DNA of 64,000 bases from contig NZ_AP025739.1 in assembly GCF_003574315.2 (NCBI RefSeq), forward strand, positions 992,001 to 1,056,000, given 5' to 3'. Shown in pieces: positions 6,805-39,783 of this stretch. The stretch comes from Capsulimonas corticalis (GTDB taxonomy: Bacteria; Armatimonadota; Armatimonadia; Armatimonadales; Capsulimonadaceae). How positions within the stretch are numbered: the stretch's first letter is position 1; the number at the start of each line of letters is the position of its first letter. The position numbers were made by a program, and so were the translations under genes. The notes under the pieces are model-generated. The model saw only the letters and a program-made list of their open reading frames with translations, made no database searches and was not told the origin of the DNA.

Positions 6805-7971
6805 TTATTGCCGCCGATAAGCCACCCGTCCCCCAATCACCGTCCACTCCACCTGCCCCGTCTCCGGGTTGATCACCACCAAATCCCCCTGCTTGCCGAT
6901 TTCCAAAGTCCCAACCCGATCCAAAATCCCCAATTGCCGGGCGGCGTTCGCGGAGGCGAGGCGCGCGGCTTGCCAGGGGGCGATTTGGGCGAACTTCTGG
7001 ACGTTTTGGAAGGCCCGGTCCATCGTGAGGACGCTGCCGGCGAGGGTGCCGTCGGCGAAGGTGGCTTCGCCGTTTTGGACGTGGACGTCGAAGCCGCCGA
7101 GCTGGTAGACGCCGTCGGGCATCGCGGCGCCTTCCATGGCGTCGGTGATCAGCACGACGCCATCCAGGCCCTTGGCGGCGACCGTGAGACGGACGATCGC
7201 GGGGTGGAGGTGGACGCCGTCGGCGATGACTTCGGCCACGATCTCCGGGGAGGTCAGAATCGCGCCGGCGGTTCCGGGCTCACGGTGGTGGACGCCGCGC
7301 ATGGCGTTGAACAGGTGCGTTCCCTGGCGCACGCCCCACGGGATGGCGCGCGCCACGTCGGCGGCGCGGGAGTCGGTGTGACCGGCGGAGACGACGACAT
7401 TCGACGCCAGCGCCGCGCGGGTCACGACTTCGGCGCCGTCCATCTCGGGGGCGAGGGTGATCTGGCGGATCGCGCCGCCGCCGAGCGTCACCCAGTGCGT
7501 AAACTCTTCCAAATCGGGGAGCCGCACATGCGCTTCGGGCTGAGCGCCGCGCCGGGCGGGGCAGATGTAGGGGCCTTCGAGGTGGACGCCGACAATGCGC
7601 ACCTCGTCGTCCCCGCGCCCCGATTCGATCACGCGGCGCGCGGCCTGGATCGCGGCGTCGGTGTCCGCGCGCGAGGCCGTCAGGGTCGTGGCGAGCATGC
7701 CCGTCGTTCCAAAACGCGCGTGGGTGCGCGCCGCCGTCCGCGCCGCCGCTTCGGTCCCATGCATGAAGTCCGCGCCGCCGCCGCCGTGGACGTGCATGTC
7801 GATAAATCCCGGCAGCACCCAGAAGCCGCTCGCATCGATATCCGCGCTCGCTCCGGCGGCGTTTCGCCGCGAGCCGATGTCCGTAATCAGGCCCGTTTCG
7901 TCATCGATTGTCAGGGCTCCATCCGACAAAATTCCATCGAAGGTCACGATCTCGCCAGTCACTGTAATCAT
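6805..7971 (-). CDS. nagA: N-acetylglucosamine-6-phosphate deacetylase
   Basis: 388 residues, full length for NagA. It removes acetate from GlcNAc-6-phosphate in the cytoplasm, feeding amino-sugar use and cell-wall recycling. It is an amidohydrolase: the metal site begins with DMHVHGGGG, continues with the ligand Glu in HLEGPY and the His residues in SAGHTDS and GTHLFNAM, and the catalytic Asp is in LITDAMEG. The C-terminus has the usual small beta-domain (GDLVVINPETGQVEWTVIGG). No nagB or sugar transporter gene is adjacent. The ATG has no good ribosome-binding site. It converges with the FGE gene. Confidence 0.95.
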   Translation of the reverse strand: MITVTGEIVTFDGILSDGALTIDDETGLITDIGSRRNAAGASADIDASGFWVLPGFIDMHVHGGGGADFMHGTEAAARTAARTHARFGTTGMLATTLTASRADTDAAIQAARRVIESGRGDDEVRIVGVHLEGPYICPARRGAQPEAHVRLPDLEEFTHWVTLGGGAIRQITLAPEMDGAEVVTRAALASNVVVSAGHTDSRAADVARAIPWGVRQGTHLFNAMRGVHHREPGTAGAILTSPEIVAEVIADGVHLHPAIVRLTVAAKGLDGVVLITDAMEGAAMPDGVYQLGGFDVHVQNGEATFADGTLAGSVLTMDRAFQNVQKFAQIAPWQAARLASANAARQLGILDRVGTLEIGKQGDLVVINPETGQVEWTVIGGRVAYRRQ

Positions 7972-8218
7972 GGACTAAAATTTCTGGAAAATCTTTGTGA
8001 AATCCTGCACTAAATACTGGGACAATGGGTATGTTACGATATCCACTTGTCCTAGCGCTGCGGCAGATTGTATACGCCCCTTGACGGGTGGTCTCTTGAA
8101 CCATGTGTAATGGTATAAAAAAATGCTTCAGCGCCTCTCCAGTGGCGGAGCAAAAATACCATAATTTGAACAGGCTCGCCGGACAATACGTCCAAACAGT
8201 CAACACAGTCTATGGGGG

Positions 8219-8368
8219 ATGAGCATGGTACGGACCAAAGGATTTACACTTGTCAATTTGCTGATGATCGTTGCGCTTCTGGCGCTGCTCTCGGCGGTTC
8301 TATTTCCGCAGATCTGTCGCAGCACCGAAGAAGCGAACGGCGTGACGATGGAGTACAATTCTCGCTAA
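8219..8368 (+). CDS. 49-residue truncated prepilin-like protein
   Basis: A very short gene that encodes only a prepilin N-terminus: KGFTLVNLLMIVALLALLS, then AVLFPQI, then about 19 polar residues and a stop. Glu5 of the mature pilin, which is needed for methylation and helix registration, is Asn here. The globular domain present in the two full prepilin-like genes of this window is absent. It is either a decayed gene or a small membrane peptide. The bases before the ATG are G-rich (GGGGG), which could serve as a weak ribosome-binding site. The hydrophobic pattern is specific enough that I trust the homology, not the function. Confidence 0.55.
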   Translation: MSMVRTKGFTLVNLLMIVALLALLSAVLFPQICRSTEEANGVTMEYNSR

Positions 8369-8470
8369 CGCGAGTATCGCTATCTTTACGCCTGGCCGCC
8401 ATCTTTTGAGCGCTTGCCGCTCCCCGGCGGCAAAACAATTATGCGCCCCTGGCGAAGCGCGCCGCCTTTC

Positions 8471-27547: not shown

Positions 27548-28513
27548 ATGGCCACTGCTGATCAATTAAAATCACTCATAAAATCACACTTTGAGGATGA
27601 CCGAGAGCGCTTCTCGACAATTGCCCTGCAGTTGGCGGCTCATGAAGCCAGACAAGGTCATTCGGCGCTCGCTCACGAAATCCGTACGTCGGTTGAGCGA
27701 GGAACCGCAAGATCTGTACGCCTCTTCCCAGCTCATCAAGAATATGATAATATTTTCGAGATGTGGGAGCCGACCCAACGTCTGAGTGACATGATTATTA
27801 ACGCAGCTACCAAACGACGTTTAGAGCGTGTAATCCTTGAGTATCGTCAATTGGATCGTTTAAAACGGCATGGTCTAGAAAACAGAAGAAAGCTGCTGAT
27901 TTTCGGCCCTCCCGGAACAGGGAAGACTATGACGGCTCAAGTATTAGCGTTTGAGCTGGGGCTTCCGCTCCTTACAGTACTAACGGACAAGCTGGTCACC
28001 AAGTATATGGGAGAAACTAGCGCCAAACTTCGGGTAGTATTCGAATGTATGGAGGAGCGCAAAGGCGTCTATCTATTCGATGAATTTGATGCTATTGGTG
28101 GGGAGCGTGAACAAAGTAACGATGTTGGTGAAATCAGACGTGTTCTCAATTCTTTCCTTCAATTCATTGAACGTGATCAATCAGACAGTCTAATCATCGC
28201 TGCAACAAATAATATCCGTCTGCTTGATCAGGCACTATTTCGAAGGTTTGACGATGTAATCCGATATGATGTGCCAACGGATTCAGAGGCAAAGCGCTTA
28301 ATGGCAAATCGTCTAGGAATTTTCAAGAGCCAAAGTCTTTCATTTAGTAGCGCGATTAAGGACCAGTTACCACTAAGTCACGCTGAAATCTCACAAGCCT
28401 GCGACGATGCAATTAAAGAGGCAATCCTAAGCGGACGTGACAAGGTTACAACCACGCTCCTACGTGATATGTTATATGACCGACGCACTGCATACGAAAC
28501 AGAACGTGAATGA
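27548..28513 (+). CDS. AAA+ ATPase of an IetAS-type pair
   Basis: 321 residues. Walker A is FGPPGTGKTMTAQ (about 120-127), Walker B is VYLFDEFDAIGG (about 174-185), sensor 1 is IIAATNN, and the arginine-finger region is LFRRFDD. The AAA+ module is of the FtsH/Cdc48-like class. The N-terminal ~85 residues form a helical region typical of these ATPases. The next gene, 4 bases downstream, encodes a subtilase. This ATPase-subtilase pair matches IetAS, first described on an Agrobacterium Ti plasmid as a toxin-antitoxin-like stability pair and later reported to protect against phage. Here the ATPase would restrain or direct the protease. Codon use is markedly more AT-rich than in flanking genes. 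Confidence 0.88.
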   Translation: MATADQLKSLIKSHFEDDRERFSTIALQLAAHEARQGHSALAHEIRTSVERGTARSVRLFPAHQEYDNIFEMWEPTQRLSDMIINAATKRRLERVILEYRQLDRLKRHGLENRRKLLIFGPPGTGKTMTAQVLAFELGLPLLTVLTDKLVTKYMGETSAKLRVVFECMEERKGVYLFDEFDAIGGEREQSNDVGEIRRVLNSFLQFIERDQSDSLIIAATNNIRLLDQALFRRFDDVIRYDVPTDSEAKRLMANRLGIFKSQSLSFSSAIKDQLPLSHAEISQACDDAIKEAILSGRDKVTTTLLRDMLYDRRTAYETERE

Positions 28514-28517
28514 CCCT

Positions 28518-31004
28518 ATGCCTTCTACCCCTCTAAAGCATATTTTTCTTAACGATAAGGTTCATAACCAAAAGTATAAACGCCCAGGTACAGGTGGTGG
28601 CGGAAACAGTAAAATCCTAGAGCGTAACCGCTTGCCTCACGCCGAACGATTGGCGACTGAGTTTGATGCCGCATGGACAGCCTCTGAAACGACAGTTGCC
28701 GAGCGATTATTCGTATCGGTGCCCGCTCGAGACGGTATATACCTTGAATTTTCTGGCTTAAAAGGCTACGATCTTATGATCAAGAGCCTTGAAGACCGAA
28801 GACAAGGCGTCCGGTTAATGTCAACGCGTTCAATAAATGACACTGTATATGCGACCGTATATGTTCCTCGATCACGGAGGGCATATTTTGCAAAAAAAAT
28901 TCGCGACTATGGCAATAGCGAATCAAGGTTCGGACAGCCAAAGAACAAGGCATCGGTCGAGAGCATAGAGAGTATTCGAAAAGCTATAATTGCTTCCTTT
29001 TGGTTAGATAATATCACTCTATTGCCTAGTACCGAGCGTGTAAAATGTGAAGTGTGGTTGCATGTCGAAAATGAAGAAACTGAGAACAGATTCCGTGATA
29101 CATGCAAGCAGCTTTCAATTCATTGTGAAAATGGGTCAATAAAATTTCCTGAGCGCAGTGTACTAATTGTGACAGCAAATTTATCAGATTTGCATCAGTT
29201 AATAGAAGCGGCCGATTTTATTGCAGAGTTGAGAAGAGCTAAAGACACTGCGAGGTACTTCTTAGAACTCGAAAACGCAGATCAAACAAATTGGTCACAA
29301 GAATTGCTTGGGCGATTGCGTACACCAAGAGAACCAAAAGTTGCAATCTCTTTGCTAGATACTGGTGTCAATAACGGTCATCCTTTACTTCAACCATTGT
29401 TGTCAGATTCTGATTGTCATACATTCAACACAAGTTGGGGTGTTACCGATCATCATGGACACGGTACACTAATGTGTGGCTTGGTTGGTTATGGCAATTT
29501 GCGGGCAGCGATGGAGAATAGTGAAGAAGTCTTTATCGATCACAAATTAGAATCCGTAAAAATCCTCCCCCCTAATGGAGAGAATGACCCTAAGCTATAT
29601 GGACATATAGTTTCTCAGGCGATTAGCCTAGTAGAGATTACGTCTCCCAAATTGAAACATATTACGTGTATGGCTGTTACTGCTACAGATGATCGTGATC
29701 GTGGCAGACCATCATCATGGTCTGCGGCCATAGACGCAATCACTTCAGGTGCTGACGACAATCAAAAACGCCTATTTATAGTATCGGCAGGTAATGTTTC
29801 CGATCCAGATCATTGGCTTACATTTCCAGAGAGCAATAAGGAAAATTCGGTACATGATCCTGGGCAATCTTGGAATGCATTGACTATTGGCGCATACACC
29901 GAGATGATATCGATAACCGACCCGACATTTGACGGTTACGTAGCTATTGCTGCTGCCGGAGAGTTATCACCTTTTAGTTCAACATCTGCCACCTGGGACA
30001 TGAAATGGCCTATAAAACCGGAAGTGCTCTTTGAGGGCGGCAATGCCGCAGCATCATTAGATGGTACTTCTGCAAGCGTATGCGACGATTTGTCAATGCT
30101 CTCCACATATAGGCAACATGCCCGCAGGCAATTCGATTCGATGCATATGACAAGTGCAGCAACTGGGCTCGCTGCAAATCTCGCGGCTCGTATTCAAGAC
30201 GCTTATCCAGACGCTTGGCCAGAAACAGTGCGTGCATTAATGGTCCACTCAGCCGAATGGACCGAAGCAATGAAGCAACAGTTTCTATCAGATGAAACAA
30301 AAACTTCCTATAATAAATTATTGCGAATTTGCGGATACGGTGTTCCATTGGAAACTCGGGCGCTAGAGTGTGCAGGAAATTACCTTACTCTCATCACTCA
30401 AAACGAGTTACAACCATTCTCGCTGGGTAAAGACAATCGTCCATCGACTAATGAAATGGACCTTCACGAATTACCATGGCCTAAAGATGAATTGTTGAAA
30501 ATGGGTGACGTTCAAGTTACTTTAAAAATAACTTTATCGTATTTTGTAGAGCCTGGGCCAGGTGAAAGAGGTTGGAAAGATAGATATCGTTATGCTTCAC
30601 ATGGTTTGAGATTCGATGTGAATATGCCCGGAGAAACTAATAATGAATTTGTTGGGAGAATGAATGCTGCCGCGCGGGACGACAACGAAACATATGAATT
30701 TGGCAGTACATCGGGTAGATGGTTACTTGGTACGAATGCTCGCGATGTCGGTTCTGTACATTCGGATAGCATCCATGGAACGGCGGCAGACATAGCGACT
30801 TGCAACTTTGTTGGTATTTATCCAGTGGGCGGTTGGTGGCGAGAACGCAGTTATCTGAATAAATACGCGAATCGGACCAGATACTCACTAATTGTTTCTA
30901 TTAGCACTCCAGCTGTCGAAGTAGATTTATATACACCAGTTTTGCATCAAGTTTCAGTTGCAAGTCAAGTTCAGCAAGTTGAAACCACGGTGCCTGGAAT
31001 ATAA
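28518..31004 (+). CDS. Subtilase of an IetAS-type pair
   Basis: 828 residues from the ATG 4 bases after the ATPase stop; in-frame starts inside the ATPase gene (28437 GTG, 28476 ATG) exist but seem less likely. No signal peptide, so the protease stays in the cytoplasm. The S8 triad is intact: Asp about 281 in ISLLDTGVNN, His about 315 in DHHGHGTLMCG, and Ser about 546 in MTSAATGLAANLAAR. The ~270-residue N-terminal domain and ~230-residue C-terminal beta-rich region fit the long IetS-type protease. An active cytoplasmic subtilase with an AAA+ partner suggests a controlled proteolytic toxin. AT-rich codon use is shared with the ATPase, indicating joint transfer. Confidence 0.87.
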   Translation: MPSTPLKHIFLNDKVHNQKYKRPGTGGGGNSKILERNRLPHAERLATEFDAAWTASETTVAERLFVSVPARDGIYLEFSGLKGYDLMIKSLEDRRQGVRLMSTRSINDTVYATVYVPRSRRAYFAKKIRDYGNSESRFGQPKNKASVESIESIRKAIIASFWLDNITLLPSTERVKCEVWLHVENEETENRFRDTCKQLSIHCENGSIKFPERSVLIVTANLSDLHQLIEAADFIAELRRAKDTARYFLELENADQTNWSQELLGRLRTPREPKVAISLLDTGVNNGHPLLQPLLSDSDCHTFNTSWGVTDHHGHGTLMCGLVGYGNLRAAMENSEEVFIDHKLESVKILPPNGENDPKLYGHIVSQAISLVEITSPKLKHITCMAVTATDDRDRGRPSSWSAAIDAITSGADDNQKRLFIVSAGNVSDPDHWLTFPESNKENSVHDPGQSWNALTIGAYTEMISITDPTFDGYVAIAAAGELSPFSSTSATWDMKWPIKPEVLFEGGNAAASLDGTSASVCDDLSMLSTYRQHARRQFDSMHMTSAATGLAANLAARIQDAYPDAWPETVRALMVHSAEWTEAMKQQFLSDETKTSYNKLLRICGYGVPLETRALECAGNYLTLITQNELQPFSLGKDNRPSTNEMDLHELPWPKDELLKMGDVQVTLKITLSYFVEPGPGERGWKDRYRYASHGLRFDVNMPGETNNEFVGRMNAAARDDNETYEFGSTSGRWLLGTNARDVGSVHSDSIHGTAADIATCNFVGIYPVGGWWRERSYLNKYANRTRYSLIVSISTPAVEVDLYTPVLHQVSVASQVQQVETTVPGI

Positions 31005-33237: not shown

Positions 33238-34257
33238 CTACTGAAGCAGCGCCGCCAGTTCCGTGTGTCCCCCATGCTCCGTCCAGTCTGCCGGAGTTCC
33301 ATTCCATTGGTTATCGCGCTGATCCGTACGGGCGCCGTTCTCCAGAAGCAGCGCCACGATCTCCGAAAACCCGCGCCACGCCGCGTTGTGCAGCGCGGAG
33401 GATTGGCCGCCGGGCGACGCGTTCACATCCCCCCTCGCGCCGCTCCGAAGCAAATATCGGACGACTTCCACTTCGTTCTGCACGCAGGCGTAAACGAGCG
33501 ATTCTTCGAGTAGTTGCGAATTGGGATCTTCTCCAAGCAGGGCTGGCAGAAGATCCAGGCGTCCGAGCGCGGCGGCGTGGCGGACATCCATCGCCGCGCC
33601 GCGCTTCACGAGCGCTTCCGCCGTCGCCCGGCCGCCGTTCCAGAGCGGCTGCGAGAGTACGTCGGGATCGTCGAGGATGCGCTCACTCGCCCCGGAGGCC
33701 TCCAGCAGTTCGATCAGCGGAGCCGCGACACTCGCCTCGAACGCCTGACGGCTTGTGATCAAAAGCCCAATTGTGGTGGAAGCGCCGGCGAGGGCGTTCG
33801 GATCGGCGCCGCGCGCGAGCAGCAGGCGTGTGACGTCCACGATATTTGCCGGAATTGGACATCGAATGGGATTGCCGGCAATGTGATGGAGAAGCGTCGC
33901 GCCCGCGAAGTACCCTTGCGCATACTCGCCGTGATGGCAGTGGTATCGTATCAGAGCGGGATATTTGTTTAACAGCGCTTCGAGCTTTGGGAGGTCCCCG
34001 GCGTCCAGCGCGCCAACGCCCTGCTGAAAGAGCAAATGCTCTTTGAATTTCGTCCAGCTTCCATAGCCATTCTCGCGCGCAATGACAAGCTGACTATCGG
34101 CGAGGGCGATGTGGGGAAGAGAAAAGAGGCGCTCGCCTTCGGGATGGCTCACGCGCAATCGCGTCAAAGTGGCGGCGTCTCCAGCGCGGGCCTGCTTGAG
34201 CAGATCTTTGGCCTGTGTCTTGTACTGATCGAGGTCGATGCCATGAGGCGTGGTCAT
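33238..34257 (-). CDS. Ankyrin-repeat protein
   Basis: 339 residues; the ATG follows AAAGGAG. The N-terminal 70 residues (DQYKTQAKDLLKQARAGDA ... ALADSQLVIARENGYGSWTKF) are the helical cap often seen before ankyrin repeats in soil bacteria. At least five repeats follow; clear ones are ATLLHHIAGNPIRC, VDVTRLLLARGADPNALAG, SALHNAAWRGFSEIVALLL and ENGARTDQRDNQWNGTPADW. It is cytoplasmic, with no enzymatic domain. Ankyrin repeats bind proteins; the target is unknown. A related repeat block is fused to a sigma factor at 35729-37615. Confidence 0.85.
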   Translation of the reverse strand: MTTPHGIDLDQYKTQAKDLLKQARAGDAATLTRLRVSHPEGERLFSLPHIALADSQLVIARENGYGSWTKFKEHLLFQQGVGALDAGDLPKLEALLNKYPALIRYHCHHGEYAQGYFAGATLLHHIAGNPIRCPIPANIVDVTRLLLARGADPNALAGASTTIGLLITSRQAFEASVAAPLIELLEASGASERILDDPDVLSQPLWNGGRATAEALVKRGAAMDVRHAAALGRLDLLPALLGEDPNSQLLEESLVYACVQNEVEVVRYLLRSGARGDVNASPGGQSSALHNAAWRGFSEIVALLLENGARTDQRDNQWNGTPADWTEHGGHTELAALLQ

Positions 34258-34702: not shown

Positions 34703-35659
34703 ATGCTGCTGAGACGCTGGAAATTGCTGATGCCGCTCGGGGCGATCTCGTTCTTTGGCGCGGGGATCAATGGGCTGTATGTCGGCCTCGCCAATCCGCA
34801 CCCCAAAACGATGACCGCCAATCAATTTGCCCACATTGCCCCAAACTCCGGCTGGTACCACGTTACCGGCGGTTATCTCGATCTGAGCCAGTCCATCGCC
34901 CTGACCGACGACGGGCGTCGCCCCGGCTACGGGGATCATCCCGCCTACGATTACATCGCCCTCCATCAGCCGAACGAAGCTCCCAATACGCCCGTTTCGG
35001 TCTTCGTTCGCACCGCCGATCCGGCGTTGATGCAGGCGGCCCAGGACGCCTCCGGCGGCTCGGACTCCAGCGGCGAACAAACCGTTTACGCGCGGACGCC
35101 GGTTTATCGGCGGATGGATATCACGGGCATGGTGCAAACCGGGATGACTCGCGATTCCAGCATCACTCGCCGACTGGAGAACACGGGGCCCTCCGTGGAC
35201 GACAACCTGGTCGTGATTGCCGACGGAGCAAAACCCAATCTCTGGAGGGCGCTGGGGTCGCTCCTGCTTGGCCTGATCCTGGGATACGGATGTGTCCAGA
35301 TGTGGATCGGCGACGACAACCCCTTCCGGCGAAACGCCAAGCAGGACGATCTGCCGACGCAGCCCGGCCTCGGGTCCATACCCTATTCGCCCCAGATGGC
35401 GAACACGCCGGTCGGATTCCCTCCCCCATATCCCCCTTACGGGCAAGCCCAGCCGCCCCAGCACCCGCAGCCTTACGGGCAAGCCCAGCCGCAGTACGCT
35501 CCGACCTACGGACAGCCGGCGACGCCGCAGCAACCGGCGGCAAGTTACGGTCAGGCGCCGCGCCCTGCGGCGCCTCAGCCGGCCGCGGAGCCGGCAAAGC
35601 CCAATAAAACAGACTCCATTCCGCCCGTGTTCGACCCATTCGCCGACCAGCAGCCCTAG
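34703..35659 (+). CDS. Membrane protein with Pro/Gln/Tyr-rich cytoplasmic tail
   Basis: 318 residues, family not recognised. A first membrane helix (LLMPLGAISFFGAGINGLYV) is followed by a ~150-residue domain, probably outside the membrane, with GWYHVTGGYLDLSQSIALTD. A second helix (RALGSLLLGLILGYGCVQMWI) follows. The last ~100 residues are low-complexity, with repeated PYGQAQP-like units rich in Pro, Gln and Tyr. The layout resembles GIDE/BAM-type two-helix proteins and some envelope proteins with a disordered tail that recruits partners. Function cannot be assigned. It has its own extended -10 promoter. Confidence 0.7.
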   Translation: MLLRRWKLLMPLGAISFFGAGINGLYVGLANPHPKTMTANQFAHIAPNSGWYHVTGGYLDLSQSIALTDDGRRPGYGDHPAYDYIALHQPNEAPNTPVSVFVRTADPALMQAAQDASGGSDSSGEQTVYARTPVYRRMDITGMVQTGMTRDSSITRRLENTGPSVDDNLVVIADGAKPNLWRALGSLLLGLILGYGCVQMWIGDDNPFRRNAKQDDLPTQPGLGSIPYSPQMANTPVGFPPPYPPYGQAQPPQHPQPYGQAQPQYAPTYGQPATPQQPAASYGQAPRPAAPQPAAEPAKPNKTDSIPPVFDPFADQQP

Positions 35660-35728: not shown

Positions 35729-37615
35729 TTACTCCTCTCCTCCATGCTCCCGCAGAAACGCCGCCATCGTGTCGCGTCCCAGCGCGACGGCGTAGCGCAG
35801 CGGCGTCCAGCCCTGAGCGGCGCGGGCGTTCACATCGGCGCCGTGCTCCAGAAGCGCGCCGGCGATCTGGGTGTCGTTCCACCATTCGGCGCAGGCGTGC
35901 AGCGGGGTCCATCCGAAGCCACTCTCAACGGCGTTCACGTCCGCGCCGTGCTCGGCGAGCAGGTGGACGACAGCGGCGGCCATCTCCTGGGGTCGCCAGT
36001 TCTGGGCGACGGCGTGCAGCGGCCTCTTACTTCCGGCCTCGCCGCGCGGCGCATTGGCGAGCTCCGGGTCGGCGGCGAGCAGAGCGCGCACGCGCTCGAC
36101 ATCGCAAAACTGGGACGCCATCCAGATATTCATCACCGGGTTCTTAGTCATCAGGTACTCGATCACCTCTGACGCGCCTTTGGCGAAACCGATGATCGCG
36201 CACTCCAGCGGCGTCTGCCCCGAGTCGTTCTCCACATTCACCAACTCCGGCTGCGCTTCCACAAGCTGCGTCACCAGAGACAGCACGCCGGCGCTCGCGA
36301 CCGTAAAGACGTCATAGGCGTGCCCCTGCGCCGCAAGCAGCTCGATCGTTTCCGTATGACCCTGGTTGCACCAGTTCGCGTTCTTCGCCGCATGCTGAAG
36401 CGCGCTCCGATGCGTCCGATCGACAGCGTGGATATCCGCCCCATGGTCCAGAAGGATCCCTACAATGTCCGCATAGCCGTCGGCGGCGGCGATCAGAAGA
36501 GGCGTTCGGCCCAGACGGTCCCGAAGTTCGCTAAGATCCGTCTGCCGCTCCAGCCGCGCTTTGACGCGCTCGGCGTCGCCGGAATGAACGTCGCGGAAGA
36601 ACGTCCGCACGTCGGGGGCGGGAGCATCGAGAGTGTCGTCGTCGATCCCTCCGGCGTCCACCAGAACGCGGGCGATACTCCGGAAGCCGCGTGCGGCGGC
36701 CGTGTGGACTTCGTCTTCGGTCGCGGCGCCTCGTGTCAGAAGAAGCTCCACCGACACCTGCTTTCCGGCTCCGATGGACGCGGCCAGCGGAGACTGACGC
36801 GCAATCCCATAGCCATCGGTCATCGTGGCGGTCAGCAGCGCGGGGCGCTCGTCAAGCAGCCGCGCCGCCTCCGTCGCGTCCCCCGCCTTAAGCGCCTGGA
36901 AGAATTGAATCGTGGACATAATCGTGTCCGTCGCCGTGTTCGGATCTTGCCCCAATGTCTCTCGCATCATCTCGGTCATCCTTTCTCGGAGACGACCGCG
37001 AGCGGAATAAAGCCGTTTTTTGACAGTCGAAAGGGGAACGCTCAGGAACTCGGCGATGTCGTGATAGGTGTAACCACCAATGTAAAACATCATCACGGCA
37101 ATCCGCTCATTCTCGCCCAAGGACCCAATTGCGGCGTGAACATCCTCGCGGAACATCCGCAGCTCGGACAACCGCGCCGGTTCATATTCGTTCGAGCCTA
37201 CTCCCAGCGCGCTGTCCAGCGCAACGATCGCGATCTGCCTGCCCCGCGTCAAACGGCAGCACTGGGAAATCACGATCCGCCTCAGCCACGCCGGAAACGT
37301 CGCCGGATCGCGCAGCTTCGGCAGCTGAAGCCACACCGTCACGAACGATTCCTGCGCAGCATCCTCCGCATCGCGCCCATCGCCCAAGTACCCGTGCGCG
37401 TAAGCATACGCCATCCCGTGGAAGCGCCGAACGACCCGCGCGAACGCCCGATGCCGCTCCTTCATCTCCGCGCCTTCGTCCTGCGCCAGCACAATCCACT
37501 CTCGATACTCTTCCAAAATGACTTCCTCTCGCGTCTCTCCCAGTAAAGAGCCGCGCCGCGCGGGAAAAGTTACCGGTGGGCCATAATATCTGAACAAGCG
37601 GCCTTCCACCTTCAC
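35729..37615 (-). CDS. ECF sigma factor fused to ankyrin repeats
   Basis: 628 residues from a GTG; the true start could be further in (for example a TTG near residue 34 behind GAGGAAG, or Met51). Residues ~45-215 are an ECF sigma factor: sigma-2 with GDGRDAEDAAQESFVTVWLQ and FPAWLRRIVISQC, sigma-4 with RIAVMMFYIGGYTYHDIAEF and LSVPLSTVKKRLYSARGRLR. From ~235 to the end are ankyrin repeats, for example TPLLIAAADGYADIVGILLD, HGADIHAVDRTHRSALQHAA and TPLHACAEWW. Ankyrin repeats in place of a separate anti-sigma suggest control by a binding partner. It is divergent from a second chimeric sigma gene, 83 bases away. Confidence 0.88.
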   Translation of the reverse strand: MKVEGRLFRYYGPPVTFPARRGSLLGETREEVILEEYREWIVLAQDEGAEMKERHRAFARVVRRFHGMAYAYAHGYLGDGRDAEDAAQESFVTVWLQLPKLRDPATFPAWLRRIVISQCCRLTRGRQIAIVALDSALGVGSNEYEPARLSELRMFREDVHAAIGSLGENERIAVMMFYIGGYTYHDIAEFLSVPLSTVKKRLYSARGRLRERMTEMMRETLGQDPNTATDTIMSTIQFFQALKAGDATEAARLLDERPALLTATMTDGYGIARQSPLAASIGAGKQVSVELLLTRGAATEDEVHTAAARGFRSIARVLVDAGGIDDDTLDAPAPDVRTFFRDVHSGDAERVKARLERQTDLSELRDRLGRTPLLIAAADGYADIVGILLDHGADIHAVDRTHRSALQHAAKNANWCNQGHTETIELLAAQGHAYDVFTVASAGVLSLVTQLVEAQPELVNVENDSGQTPLECAIIGFAKGASEVIEYLMTKNPVMNIWMASQFCDVERVRALLAADPELANAPRGEAGSKRPLHAVAQNWRPQEMAAAVVHLLAEHGADVNAVESGFGWTPLHACAEWWNDTQIAGALLEHGADVNARAAQGWTPLRYAVALGRDTMAAFLREHGGEE

Positions 37616-37698
37616 CGATTCCGTTTCTCATGCAGAATTTCTTTTGCGTCGTGTGTCGGATTTGGCGCGTGCGCGTACAGAACTTGATTAGGACACCC

Positions 37699-39783
37699 AT
37701 GCAGGATCATCAGCTCATTCGAAAATATGTGGAATCCGGATCCAACGACGCCTTTCGCACGATCACGGCGCGCTATATCAATCTCGTCTACGCGACGTGT
37801 CTGCGGCAGGTCGGCGACCGGCAGACGGCGGAAGACGCCACGCAGGCCGTGTTTATTCTTCTGGCGCAAAAGGCGCCGCGTTTGAAACCGGACACGCCGC
37901 TTGCCGGCTGGCTGTTCCACGCGTCGCGCCTGGTCGCCCGCAACGCCCGGAAACGAGAAAGGCGGTACGCCGCGATGCTGCGTGACGCTCGGCCGCAATT
38001 GGAAACGGAGACGACAAGCGATGTGGCGCTTATGCTGGACGACGCCGTCTCCCGGCTCTCGGAAAAGGATCGTCAGGCGATCCTTTTGCGTTTCTACCAG
38101 GAGCTTTCCTTCGCGGAAATCGGCGCGCGGATCGGCGTGTCGGAAGACGCCGCCGGGAAACGCGTTTCCCGCGCCGTGGAGCGGCTGCGCGTCAGCCTGG
38201 GCAAGGCTGGAGCCGGCGTCCTTTCCATATCGCTGCTGGCGATCCTGGAAAGCGACGCGGCGCACAGCGCGCCTCCGGAGCTGGCGAACACGATCGCGGC
38301 GGCCATCACGGGAATGGGAGATTATGCTGGAACGAGCGCGGGTGTCCTGAAACTCGCACAAGGAGCGGCCCAGCAAATGATGAGAACAAAATTGATCGTG
38401 ACAGCGTCGTCAATCGGCGCCATCGCGCTTTGCGCGGGAGTAGCGGGAACGGCCTATGGGCGTTATGCAAGCGCGCCCCCTCACCCATCAACGCAGAAGA
38501 CGGCGGCGCCCCTCTCGGCGACGCCGCAAAACCCGAAGGTCACGCTGGCCGACGGGACGATCGTCGAACTTCTCGGCGTGACAGCCGATCAGTTGCTCGC
38601 GACTGTCAACGGGCATGCCTATAGCCAGAACGGATGGTGGACCGCCTCTGGGGACGCGATGGCCGATCCACCGGGAACGCCGTCGTTCCGAGTCGGCCAA
38701 ACTGCGGGCAGTTATGTCCCCCGCGAGCTTTGTTTTCGCGTGACGACTCCGGCCTCCGGAACGATCACGACCGAAGGCAAGCTCATCGGATTTACAACCA
38801 GCGACTACGGCGGCAATCTCAACGCCGATGTCGCTCCCGCCGAATCGGCCGTCGTGGAGGCGAACAAGCCGTCCTACGCGCTCATCACCGCGGACTTACC
38901 CGATAACCGGCATGAGTTCGGCTATCGGTTGGGGGTCTCAACAGGCGAATGGCGCGTCCTCGCGGACACGCCGCTGACTCTGCGCCCGGCGCGGGACGAT
39001 ATGTTCATCAGCCACGGCGGCTACGTCGCCGGTCCCAGCGTCAACGCCACGGGCGCGCCCATCGTTTATTACCTGGACAGAAATCGAAAAATCGTATCTC
39101 AGAATTTACTGCCGCCCGGCCAGACGGTCGGCGACGAGGAGCGCCGAGCCGAGGGATTGGACGCTCAGGGACAGATCGTCGCGCGGGAGGCGGACGGAAT
39201 CTGGTCGCCGGAGAGCTTCTTGAGGATCGCCACGATCCGCCTCGAACACCGCCCCCGAATGTGGGCGCAGTTCGACCACATCGCCGGCTGCGCCAAGAGC
39301 GAAATTCCGATGCCCCAGGCCCAGCCGCAGTTCCAGCAGACCATGGGCGACGCAACCGTCAGCGTGCTCGCCGTGGTCCAGTCCAGAGCCGACGGGCATC
39401 GCTGCTGGCTGCCTGACGGAACACCGATCACCGGCAAGGTTCAGGGCCTCGCATTCGCCGGTCCGGACGCTTGGTCCATCAGCAACAACCCTGGCGCGCA
39501 CAAAATCGATGTGCAGTATTACACCCAGCATGGCCGTTTGAGCATCATCTACGATATCTCTCGTCCACAGCAAGGCCCGCCCTGGCGAACCTTCTCCGCC
39601 GAGGTTCCCGGCGCCGGCTCGCCCGGACAGCCGGCCACCGGCCGCCTGCCGAGCAGCATCCCCGTAACAGTCCACCCGGGACAGTCCGCATGCGCCCTGG
39701 ACATCCAAGTCATGGCGACCGACCCACGCCTGCCGCCGCATCGATTCCATTTCGACAAGATCGCCTTGCGGCCACGCGAATAA
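37699..39783 (+). CDS. ECF sigma factor with membrane segment and large C-terminal extension
   Basis: 694 residues from the ATG at 37699, which has TTAGGA upstream; an in-frame ATG at 37630 gives an unlikely leader. The first ~180 residues are an ECF sigma factor: sigma-2 with INLVYATCLRQVGDRQTAED and PLAGWLFHASRLVARNA, sigma-4 with KDRQAILLRFYQELSFAEIG and VSEDAAGKRVSRAVERLR. A helix at about 231-253 (LIVTASSIGAIALCAGVAG) is a membrane segment, and the remaining ~440 residues are a beta-rich domain probably outside the cytoplasm. This makes a single-chain membrane-tethered sigma factor. An internal ATG at 38377 with AAGGAG upstream could alternatively start a separate membrane protein. Confidence 0.85.
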   Translation: MQDHQLIRKYVESGSNDAFRTITARYINLVYATCLRQVGDRQTAEDATQAVFILLAQKAPRLKPDTPLAGWLFHASRLVARNARKRERRYAAMLRDARPQLETETTSDVALMLDDAVSRLSEKDRQAILLRFYQELSFAEIGARIGVSEDAAGKRVSRAVERLRVSLGKAGAGVLSISLLAILESDAAHSAPPELANTIAAAITGMGDYAGTSAGVLKLAQGAAQQMMRTKLIVTASSIGAIALCAGVAGTAYGRYASAPPHPSTQKTAAPLSATPQNPKVTLADGTIVELLGVTADQLLATVNGHAYSQNGWWTASGDAMADPPGTPSFRVGQTAGSYVPRELCFRVTTPASGTITTEGKLIGFTTSDYGGNLNADVAPAESAVVEANKPSYALITADLPDNRHEFGYRLGVSTGEWRVLADTPLTLRPARDDMFISHGGYVAGPSVNATGAPIVYYLDRNRKIVSQNLLPPGQTVGDEERRAEGLDAQGQIVAREADGIWSPESFLRIATIRLEHRPRMWAQFDHIAGCAKSEIPMPQAQPQFQQTMGDATVSVLAVVQSRADGHRCWLPDGTPITGKVQGLAFAGPDAWSISNNPGAHKIDVQYYTQHGRLSIIYDISRPQQGPPWRTFSAEVPGAGSPGQPATGRLPSSIPVTVHPGQSACALDIQVMATDPRLPPHRFHFDKIALRPRE

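Follow-up and report, generated by a model that had tools for sequence, protein, structure and literature searches.

An ECF sigma factor with a C-terminal ankyrin-repeat domain in Capsulimonas corticalis and its clade of extended ECF factors

The fusion gene and its surroundings

The window analyzed here, a stretch of 64,000 nucleotides from Capsulimonas corticalis (Armatimonadota), contains a gene in which the two conserved regions of an ECF sigma factor and a long ankyrin-repeat domain are joined in a single product (Table 1). On the minus strand, positions 35729-37615 form an uninterrupted open frame of 628 codons, whereas the plus strand is broken by stops over the same interval. The first 33 codons of this frame are probably untranslated and translation probably begins at the TTG codon at 37516, since this codon is preceded at a suitable distance by GAGAGGAAG (37530-37522) and the N-termini of homologues agree with a start at the matching point.

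Table 1. Features of the fusion gene and of its immediate neighborhood, in window coordinates.
Feature	Position	Strand	Basis and remarks
ECF sigma-ankyrin fusion gene	35729..37516	(-)	595 aa from the preferred TTG; open frame extends to GTG 37615 (628 aa)
Sigma-70 region 2 (core RNA polymerase binding, -10 recognition)	37238..37432	(-)	Pfam PF04542, 2.9e-13; residues 62-126 of the 628-aa product
Sigma-70 region 4 (helix-turn-helix, -35 recognition)	36989..37147	(-)	Pfam PF08281, 2.8e-11; residues 157-209 of the 628-aa product
Junction between sigma-4 and extension	36911..36988	(-)	Alignment and motif counts; residues 190-193 of the 595-aa protein modeled with low confidence
Ankyrin-repeat domain, about 390 residues	35732..36910	(-)	Pfam Ank_2/Ank/Ank_4; helical-repeat model; best PDB matches are ankyrins and DARPins
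Intergenic region common to the fusion and the divergent sigma gene	37517..37698	.	Presumed to hold both promoters; read from sequence
Divergent sigma-70 factor	37699..39783	(+)	Pfam r2 and r4; hydrophobic, probably membrane-spanning stretch; long C-terminal tail; open frame from ATG 37630
Separate ankyrin-repeat protein, 339 aa	33238..34257	(-)	Pfam Ank
318-aa protein between the two ankyrin genes	34703..35659	(+)	Two hydrophobic stretches, no Pfam match

In the fusion product, Pfam identifies Sigma70_r2 and Sigma70_r4_2, followed by Ank_2 (5.5e-34, in three stretches) and Ank (5.1e-27), all with scores well over the curated cut-offs and, thus, neither the sigma nor the ankyrin matches can be ascribed to chance. 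The protein also matches the sigma70-ECF family TIGR02937 at 68.4 bits (cut-off 42.9), and the residues of sigma region 2 that are invariant in its clade, described below, are present. No family match to sigma region 3 was found in the product, in which regions 2 and 4 are only about 30 residues apart, in a stretch of low model confidence. A sequence-only reading of this locus had claimed that intact sigma-2 and sigma-4 regions are followed in the same frame by roughly 390 residues of ankyrin repeats, and this description is borne out, with neither a stop nor a frameshift between the two parts. The contig that carries the gene is a single chromosome of 7.65 Mb and the same architecture is found in independent genomes, so that an assembly error is a very unlikely source of the fusion.

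An AlphaFold2 model of the fusion protein, computed from an alignment of 19 sequences, reached a mean pLDDT of 87 and a pTM of 0.57, the latter leaving uncertain how the ankyrin domain is oriented toward the sigma core. A structure search with this model returned ankyrins and designed ankyrins, and the first 199 residues matched solved ECF factors (SigE, SigH, E. coli sigma-E, and SigW) over their full length at the sequence level, with a best value of 5e-15. A solved sigma-ankyrin fusion was not among the matches listed by either the sequence or the structure searches.

Among the window neighbors scanned, no anti-sigma family was detected, and no open frame of the zinc-type anti-sigma kind lies within 1.5 kb of the fusion gene. 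The neighbors with matches encode AAA, subtilase, lectin-like, AraC, lactamase-like, glycosyltransferase-like, and WD40 products. On the plus strand, at 27548-31004, an AAA ATPase gene is followed by an overlapping subtilase gene, in what appears to be a two-gene unit.

Recurrence of the fusion and the clade of extended ECF factors

The possibility that the window gene is a one-off was rejected, since ECF-ankyrin fusions recur in the same genome, in the same phylum, and in other phyla. A second ECF-ankyrin gene, encoding 520 aa, is located at G000:C1:1188046 in the same genome and, among 291 Armatimonadota genomes, matches spanning both the sigma and the ankyrin parts were found in the window genome (twice), G029, G034, G036, and G060. 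Since matches are limited to those few genomes, the fusion is rare in the phylum. The search for further fusions, extended to species genomes, added cases from Chloroflexota (L035, L038, and L047), Poribacteria (L036 and L045), and candidate division KSB1 (L037); the window protein as a single query gave no matches in that scan, and it was the alignment-based scan that found them. In total, 12 ECF-ankyrin fusions, two of which run into the end of their locus and are incomplete, were collected from Armatimonadota, Chloroflexota, Poribacteria, and KSB1; the loci L020 and L041 carry an identical open frame, one being the G034 copy and the other a GenBank record. Some of the extensions are orthologous over their whole length, in part across phyla, with identities of 69% between L037 and L029, 40% between L037 and L011, and 74% between L038 and L047. 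The ankyrin part of the window protein is 25-30% identical to the other fused ones.

Related ankyrin sequences also occur apart from a sigma domain. L151 (a 562-codon open frame, minus strand) and L152 (6166-7836, plus strand), from two genomes, encode free-standing ankyrin proteins whose homology to the extension of L037 and L029 covers most of their length, L151 being about 41% identical to that of L037, and no sigma domain was detected in the fetched flanks of either locus. In G062, the extension and the junction are present without a recognizable sigma part. L150 (248-2344, minus strand) holds an ankyrin extension with junction remnants (QAARPSGDPKLAEKVQRMVRPEALKKN) and no recognizable sigma part upstream, and is possibly a decayed or truncated fusion.

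The sigma parts of these proteins belong together. When sequences were scored with a profile of the sigma part alone, for which sequences of this very set, almost all with extensions, had served as the source, 50 sequences scored at 189-279 bits and ordinary ECF factors at 154 bits and below, and the window protein, at 237 bits, is found inside the group. In a maximum-likelihood tree the 50 sequences, including all ECF-ankyrin fusions, form one clade with a support of 99/90, which spans Armatimonadota, Chloroflexota, Poribacteria, KSB1, Hydrogenedentota, Nitrospinota, Pseudomonadota, and Bacillota. At least 160 residues follow sigma-4 in 43 of the 50, between 60 and 160 in three (two of which are cut by locus ends), and fewer than 60 in four; of the 65 ECF factors below the score gap, 9 carry at least 160 residues at this position.

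The extensions themselves are diverse and comprise ankyrin (12 members), T2SSF-like, tRNA-synt_2d (PheS-like), Polbeta nucleotidyltransferase, GNAT, DUF1835, an ATP-synt_ab piece, TPR, and several without a Pfam match; a group of related long extensions is labeled here as TPR-like, although a Pfam TPR match is found in L044 only. The ankyrin members are scattered in the tree: the best topology implies eight changes of label, and well-supported branches force two or more of these. The arrangement of all ankyrin members as one clade was disfavored (AU p 0.033); this evidence is moderate, and the deeper branches are poorly resolved. Thus, repeated gain of the ankyrin module within the clade is favored but not proved.

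Directly after sigma-4, many clade members have a segment of the RPSRDxxF type irrespective of the module that follows. Its PSxxxF core is present in 10 of the 12 ankyrin members, in six of seven TPR-like and three of three T2SSF-like members, and in the nucleotidyltransferase member, and is absent from the PheS-like members, the DUF1835 members, and nine extended ECF factors outside the clade. The window copy has diverged at the junction and has lost PSxxxF. This segment could contribute to the mechanism of control or could simply have been left over from a common ancestor.

The clade also differs from ordinary ECF factors in its surroundings. Open frames with the H...C..C motif, a scan that detects zinc-type anti-sigma factors only and that was applied to some loci shorter than the full flank, lie within 1.5 kb of 1 of 46 extended clade members vs. 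26 of 56 ordinary ECF factors handled in the same way (Fisher p 1.5e-7). A comparison of gene neighborhoods at 12 loci, whose ankyrin extensions are fused to a sigma part or related to those that are, gave no common partner gene. The sole neighbor seen twice is a conserved membrane-protein gene that adjoins the ECF-ankyrin gene in two Chloroflexota loci (L038, 6890-8173, and L047, 6704-7987, both on the minus strand). In the KSB1 locus L037, an ankyrin-like gene (7518-8423, plus strand) follows downstream of the ECF-ankyrin gene at a distance of about 1.6 kb and recalls the separate ankyrin gene near the window fusion.

Proposed control of the sigma part by the ankyrin domain

In ECF factors, sigma-2 and sigma-4 must be free to embrace the core RNA polymerase, and anti-sigma factors block that embrace. 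The near-universal extensions of the clade and the missing adjacent zinc-type anti-sigma genes form the pattern expected if the extension had taken over the anti-sigma role. The fusion, an ECF factor with a presumed regulatory extension, is probably controlled in cis by the ankyrin domain at its C-terminus, the binding of a partner protein or peptide changing the engagement of the sigma part with the polymerase, a reading to which a probability of roughly 0.6 can be given. The sigma-2/sigma-4 part would bind RNA polymerase and the promoter, and the ankyrin solenoid, held on a flexible junction after sigma-4, would bind the partner, which could alter, in either the activating or the inhibiting direction, the ability of the sigma domains to engage the polymerase. 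The fused module would then perform the anti-sigma function without a separate anti-sigma protein, as in the TPR-extended ECF42, and would be exchangeable within the clade, ankyrin being one of many modules. Against control in cis stand the lack of a conserved neighbor as a candidate ankyrin ligand in ECF-ankyrin loci, the loss from the window copy of the PSxxxF segment that most ankyrin members keep, the possibility of an anti-sigma factor that lacks the zinc motif or is encoded at a distance, and the uncertain domain orientation in the model. The sequence-only reading had proposed control by a protein ligand without a classical anti-sigma factor; the second half agrees with the absence of zinc-type anti-sigma genes near the window gene and in the clade, and the first half, a protein as the ligand, is a presumption.

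Several known systems offer partial parallels. In ECF42, the closest case that has been studied, activity requires the TPR extension, which is believed to work via protein interaction (PMC8999054), and the protein, like the fusion, consists of an ECF core followed by a long protein-interaction repeat solenoid, with no anti-sigma factor (PMC8999054). However, its TPR domain comprises about 200 residues as opposed to the 390 of the ankyrin domain, there is no TPR match in the fusion, and the YCII-family gene that neighbors ECF42 was not found among the window neighbors scanned. ECF57 likewise combines an ECF core with a repeat domain for protein contacts (PMC8999054), but the repeats are WD40-like and occur in part of the group only, and the fusion product has no WD40 match. 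ECF41/SigJ has a C-terminal extension that touches the sigma core and regulates it in cis (PMC8999054), as proposed here, although this extension has a SnoaL-like fold instead of a repeat solenoid, its ligand is thought to be a small molecule, and no SnoaL match was found in the fusion. Canonical pairs of the SigE/RseA and SigH/RshA type have the same sigma-2/sigma-4 core, but their zinc-type anti-sigma factor is encoded by an adjacent gene, whereas in the fusion the presumed control module is part of the protein.

The reviews of ECF factors that were consulted count at least 26 groups with extensions and mention extensions of the SnoaL, TPR, WD40, cysteine-rich, and anti-sigma-like kinds. Ankyrin is absent from these reviews, and no ECF-ankyrin fusion was found in the literature searched, which does not cover the primary 2021 ECF classification, where the clade may already be numbered as a group. 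The fusion had been called unusual in the sequence-only reading, and with respect to the reviews it is; on the other hand, it is a member of a multi-phylum clade, and a different fusion of ankyrin repeats and a sigma-70 domain, MzaA, has already been catalogued.

It is unlikely, but deserves consideration, that the ankyrin domain does not regulate the sigma part at all and instead tethers the sigma-polymerase complex to a place or partner, such as the membrane, a nucleoid protein, or an enzyme, with the gene being controlled by its own transcription. Control by transcription alone is known for some ECF factors (PMC8999054), and the enzyme-like modules of the clade (PheS-like, nucleotidyltransferase, and GNAT) are not obvious inhibitors; however, near-universal extensions that coincide with missing adjacent zinc-type anti-sigma genes are what would be expected of an extension that had taken over the anti-sigma role.

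An immunity-type sensor, in which the ankyrin domain recognizes an invader or a damage product and the sigma domain turns the response on, is an improbable reading that takes MzaA as its model. This protein, described as a sigma factor (PMC9523054) and belonging to the MZA anti-phage system (NF041931; NCBIfam), combines ankyrin repeats and a sigma-70 domain in a single polypeptide, as the fusion does, and gives a sub-threshold match of 67 bits to the ankyrin part, which is also matched by ankyrin models of candidate defense families. However, the latter matches amount to generic ankyrin similarity, and in MzaA the order is reversed, since the ankyrin repeats are N-terminal (about 5-120 of the profile) and the sigma part, at 460-717, differs in type, its best matches in the window genome being sigma genes other than ECFs. 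Moreover, MzaA is encoded in a defense operon, while the MutL, Z1, and AIPR families were not found among the neighbors tested. Membership of the fusion in the MZA system itself was rejected, given a score of 67 against a cut-off of 800, a best stretch that is the ankyrin part, the reversed order, and the lack of mzaBCDE-type genes among the neighbors scanned.

The partners suggested in the sequence-only reading, namely the separate ankyrin protein at 33238-34257 and the tail of the divergent sigma factor, are very improbable ligands, and on this point the earlier interpretation, otherwise right in outline and partly supported, finds no support. Both are close to the fusion gene, and in L037, too, an ankyrin-like gene is found no more than about 2 kb away, but proximity is weak evidence because the genome holds dozens of ankyrin genes. 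The two ankyrin genes are separated by a gene on the opposite strand (34703-35659), and the ankyrin protein shares with the fusion only a weak, generic ankyrin similarity of 31 bits. The divergent sigma factor scores 59 bits with the sigma profile of the clade, far from the 189-279 of its members, and neither neighbor is conserved in most other ECF-ankyrin loci.

Finally, a functionless accident, either a recent gene fusion or an annotation artifact, is scarcely credible: the low identity of the window ankyrin part to the other fused ones and the missing junction motif could be explained in this way, but the frame is open on a chromosome assembled as one contig, the domains are intact, and orthologous fusions have persisted across phyla, all of which speaks against it, and recurrence largely refutes it.

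Other modules on the same sigma core

Exchangeable extensions on one ECF core are a more interesting result than a single fusion. It can tentatively be proposed, at slightly worse than even odds, that one ECF lineage present in at least seven phyla serves as a plug-in platform, in which unrelated modules (ankyrin, PheS-like, T2SSF-like, nucleotidyltransferase, GNAT, DUF1835, TPR, and unclassified) have repeatedly been attached to a sigma core and a short junction. Each module would be an internal sensor that doubles as anti-sigma factor or activator, and the ankyrin type would have originated at least twice. Regulatory extensions of ECF factors are a known phenomenon, yet only a few kinds have been investigated, and one sigma core with many unrelated modules could show, through module swapping, how an extension controls an ECF factor. 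The clade is, moreover, a possible source of natural one-protein sensors and switches, and provides a testable regulatory hypothesis for genes in poorly studied phyla, such as Armatimonadota, Poribacteria, and KSB1.

Several of the other fusions can be described individually. Clade ECF factors fused to a PheS-like core (tRNA-synt_2d, with E values down to 2e-38) are found in L017, L028, L124, and L131 (Armatimonadota) and in L039 (Hydrogenedentota), and might sense an amino acid or tRNA. A T2SSF piece of type II secretion or pilus systems is fused to the ECF factors of L014, L021, and L130, and also of L032, which is weakly T2SSE-like. In Paenibacillus, the clade members of L049 and L053 carry a fused DUF1835. 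Under the score gap of the clade, ECF factors with extensions of about 670-880 residues occur in Oscillospiraceae and other Clostridia (L063, L065, L092, L095, L105, and L114), and the extension of L063, the one scanned among these, has no clear Pfam match. The window genome (G000) is, as a whole, rich in long sigma proteins, with 46 matches to sigma region 4, 16 of which, among them an ECF factor with HEAT repeats at 7562710, lie in open frames of at least 400 codons.
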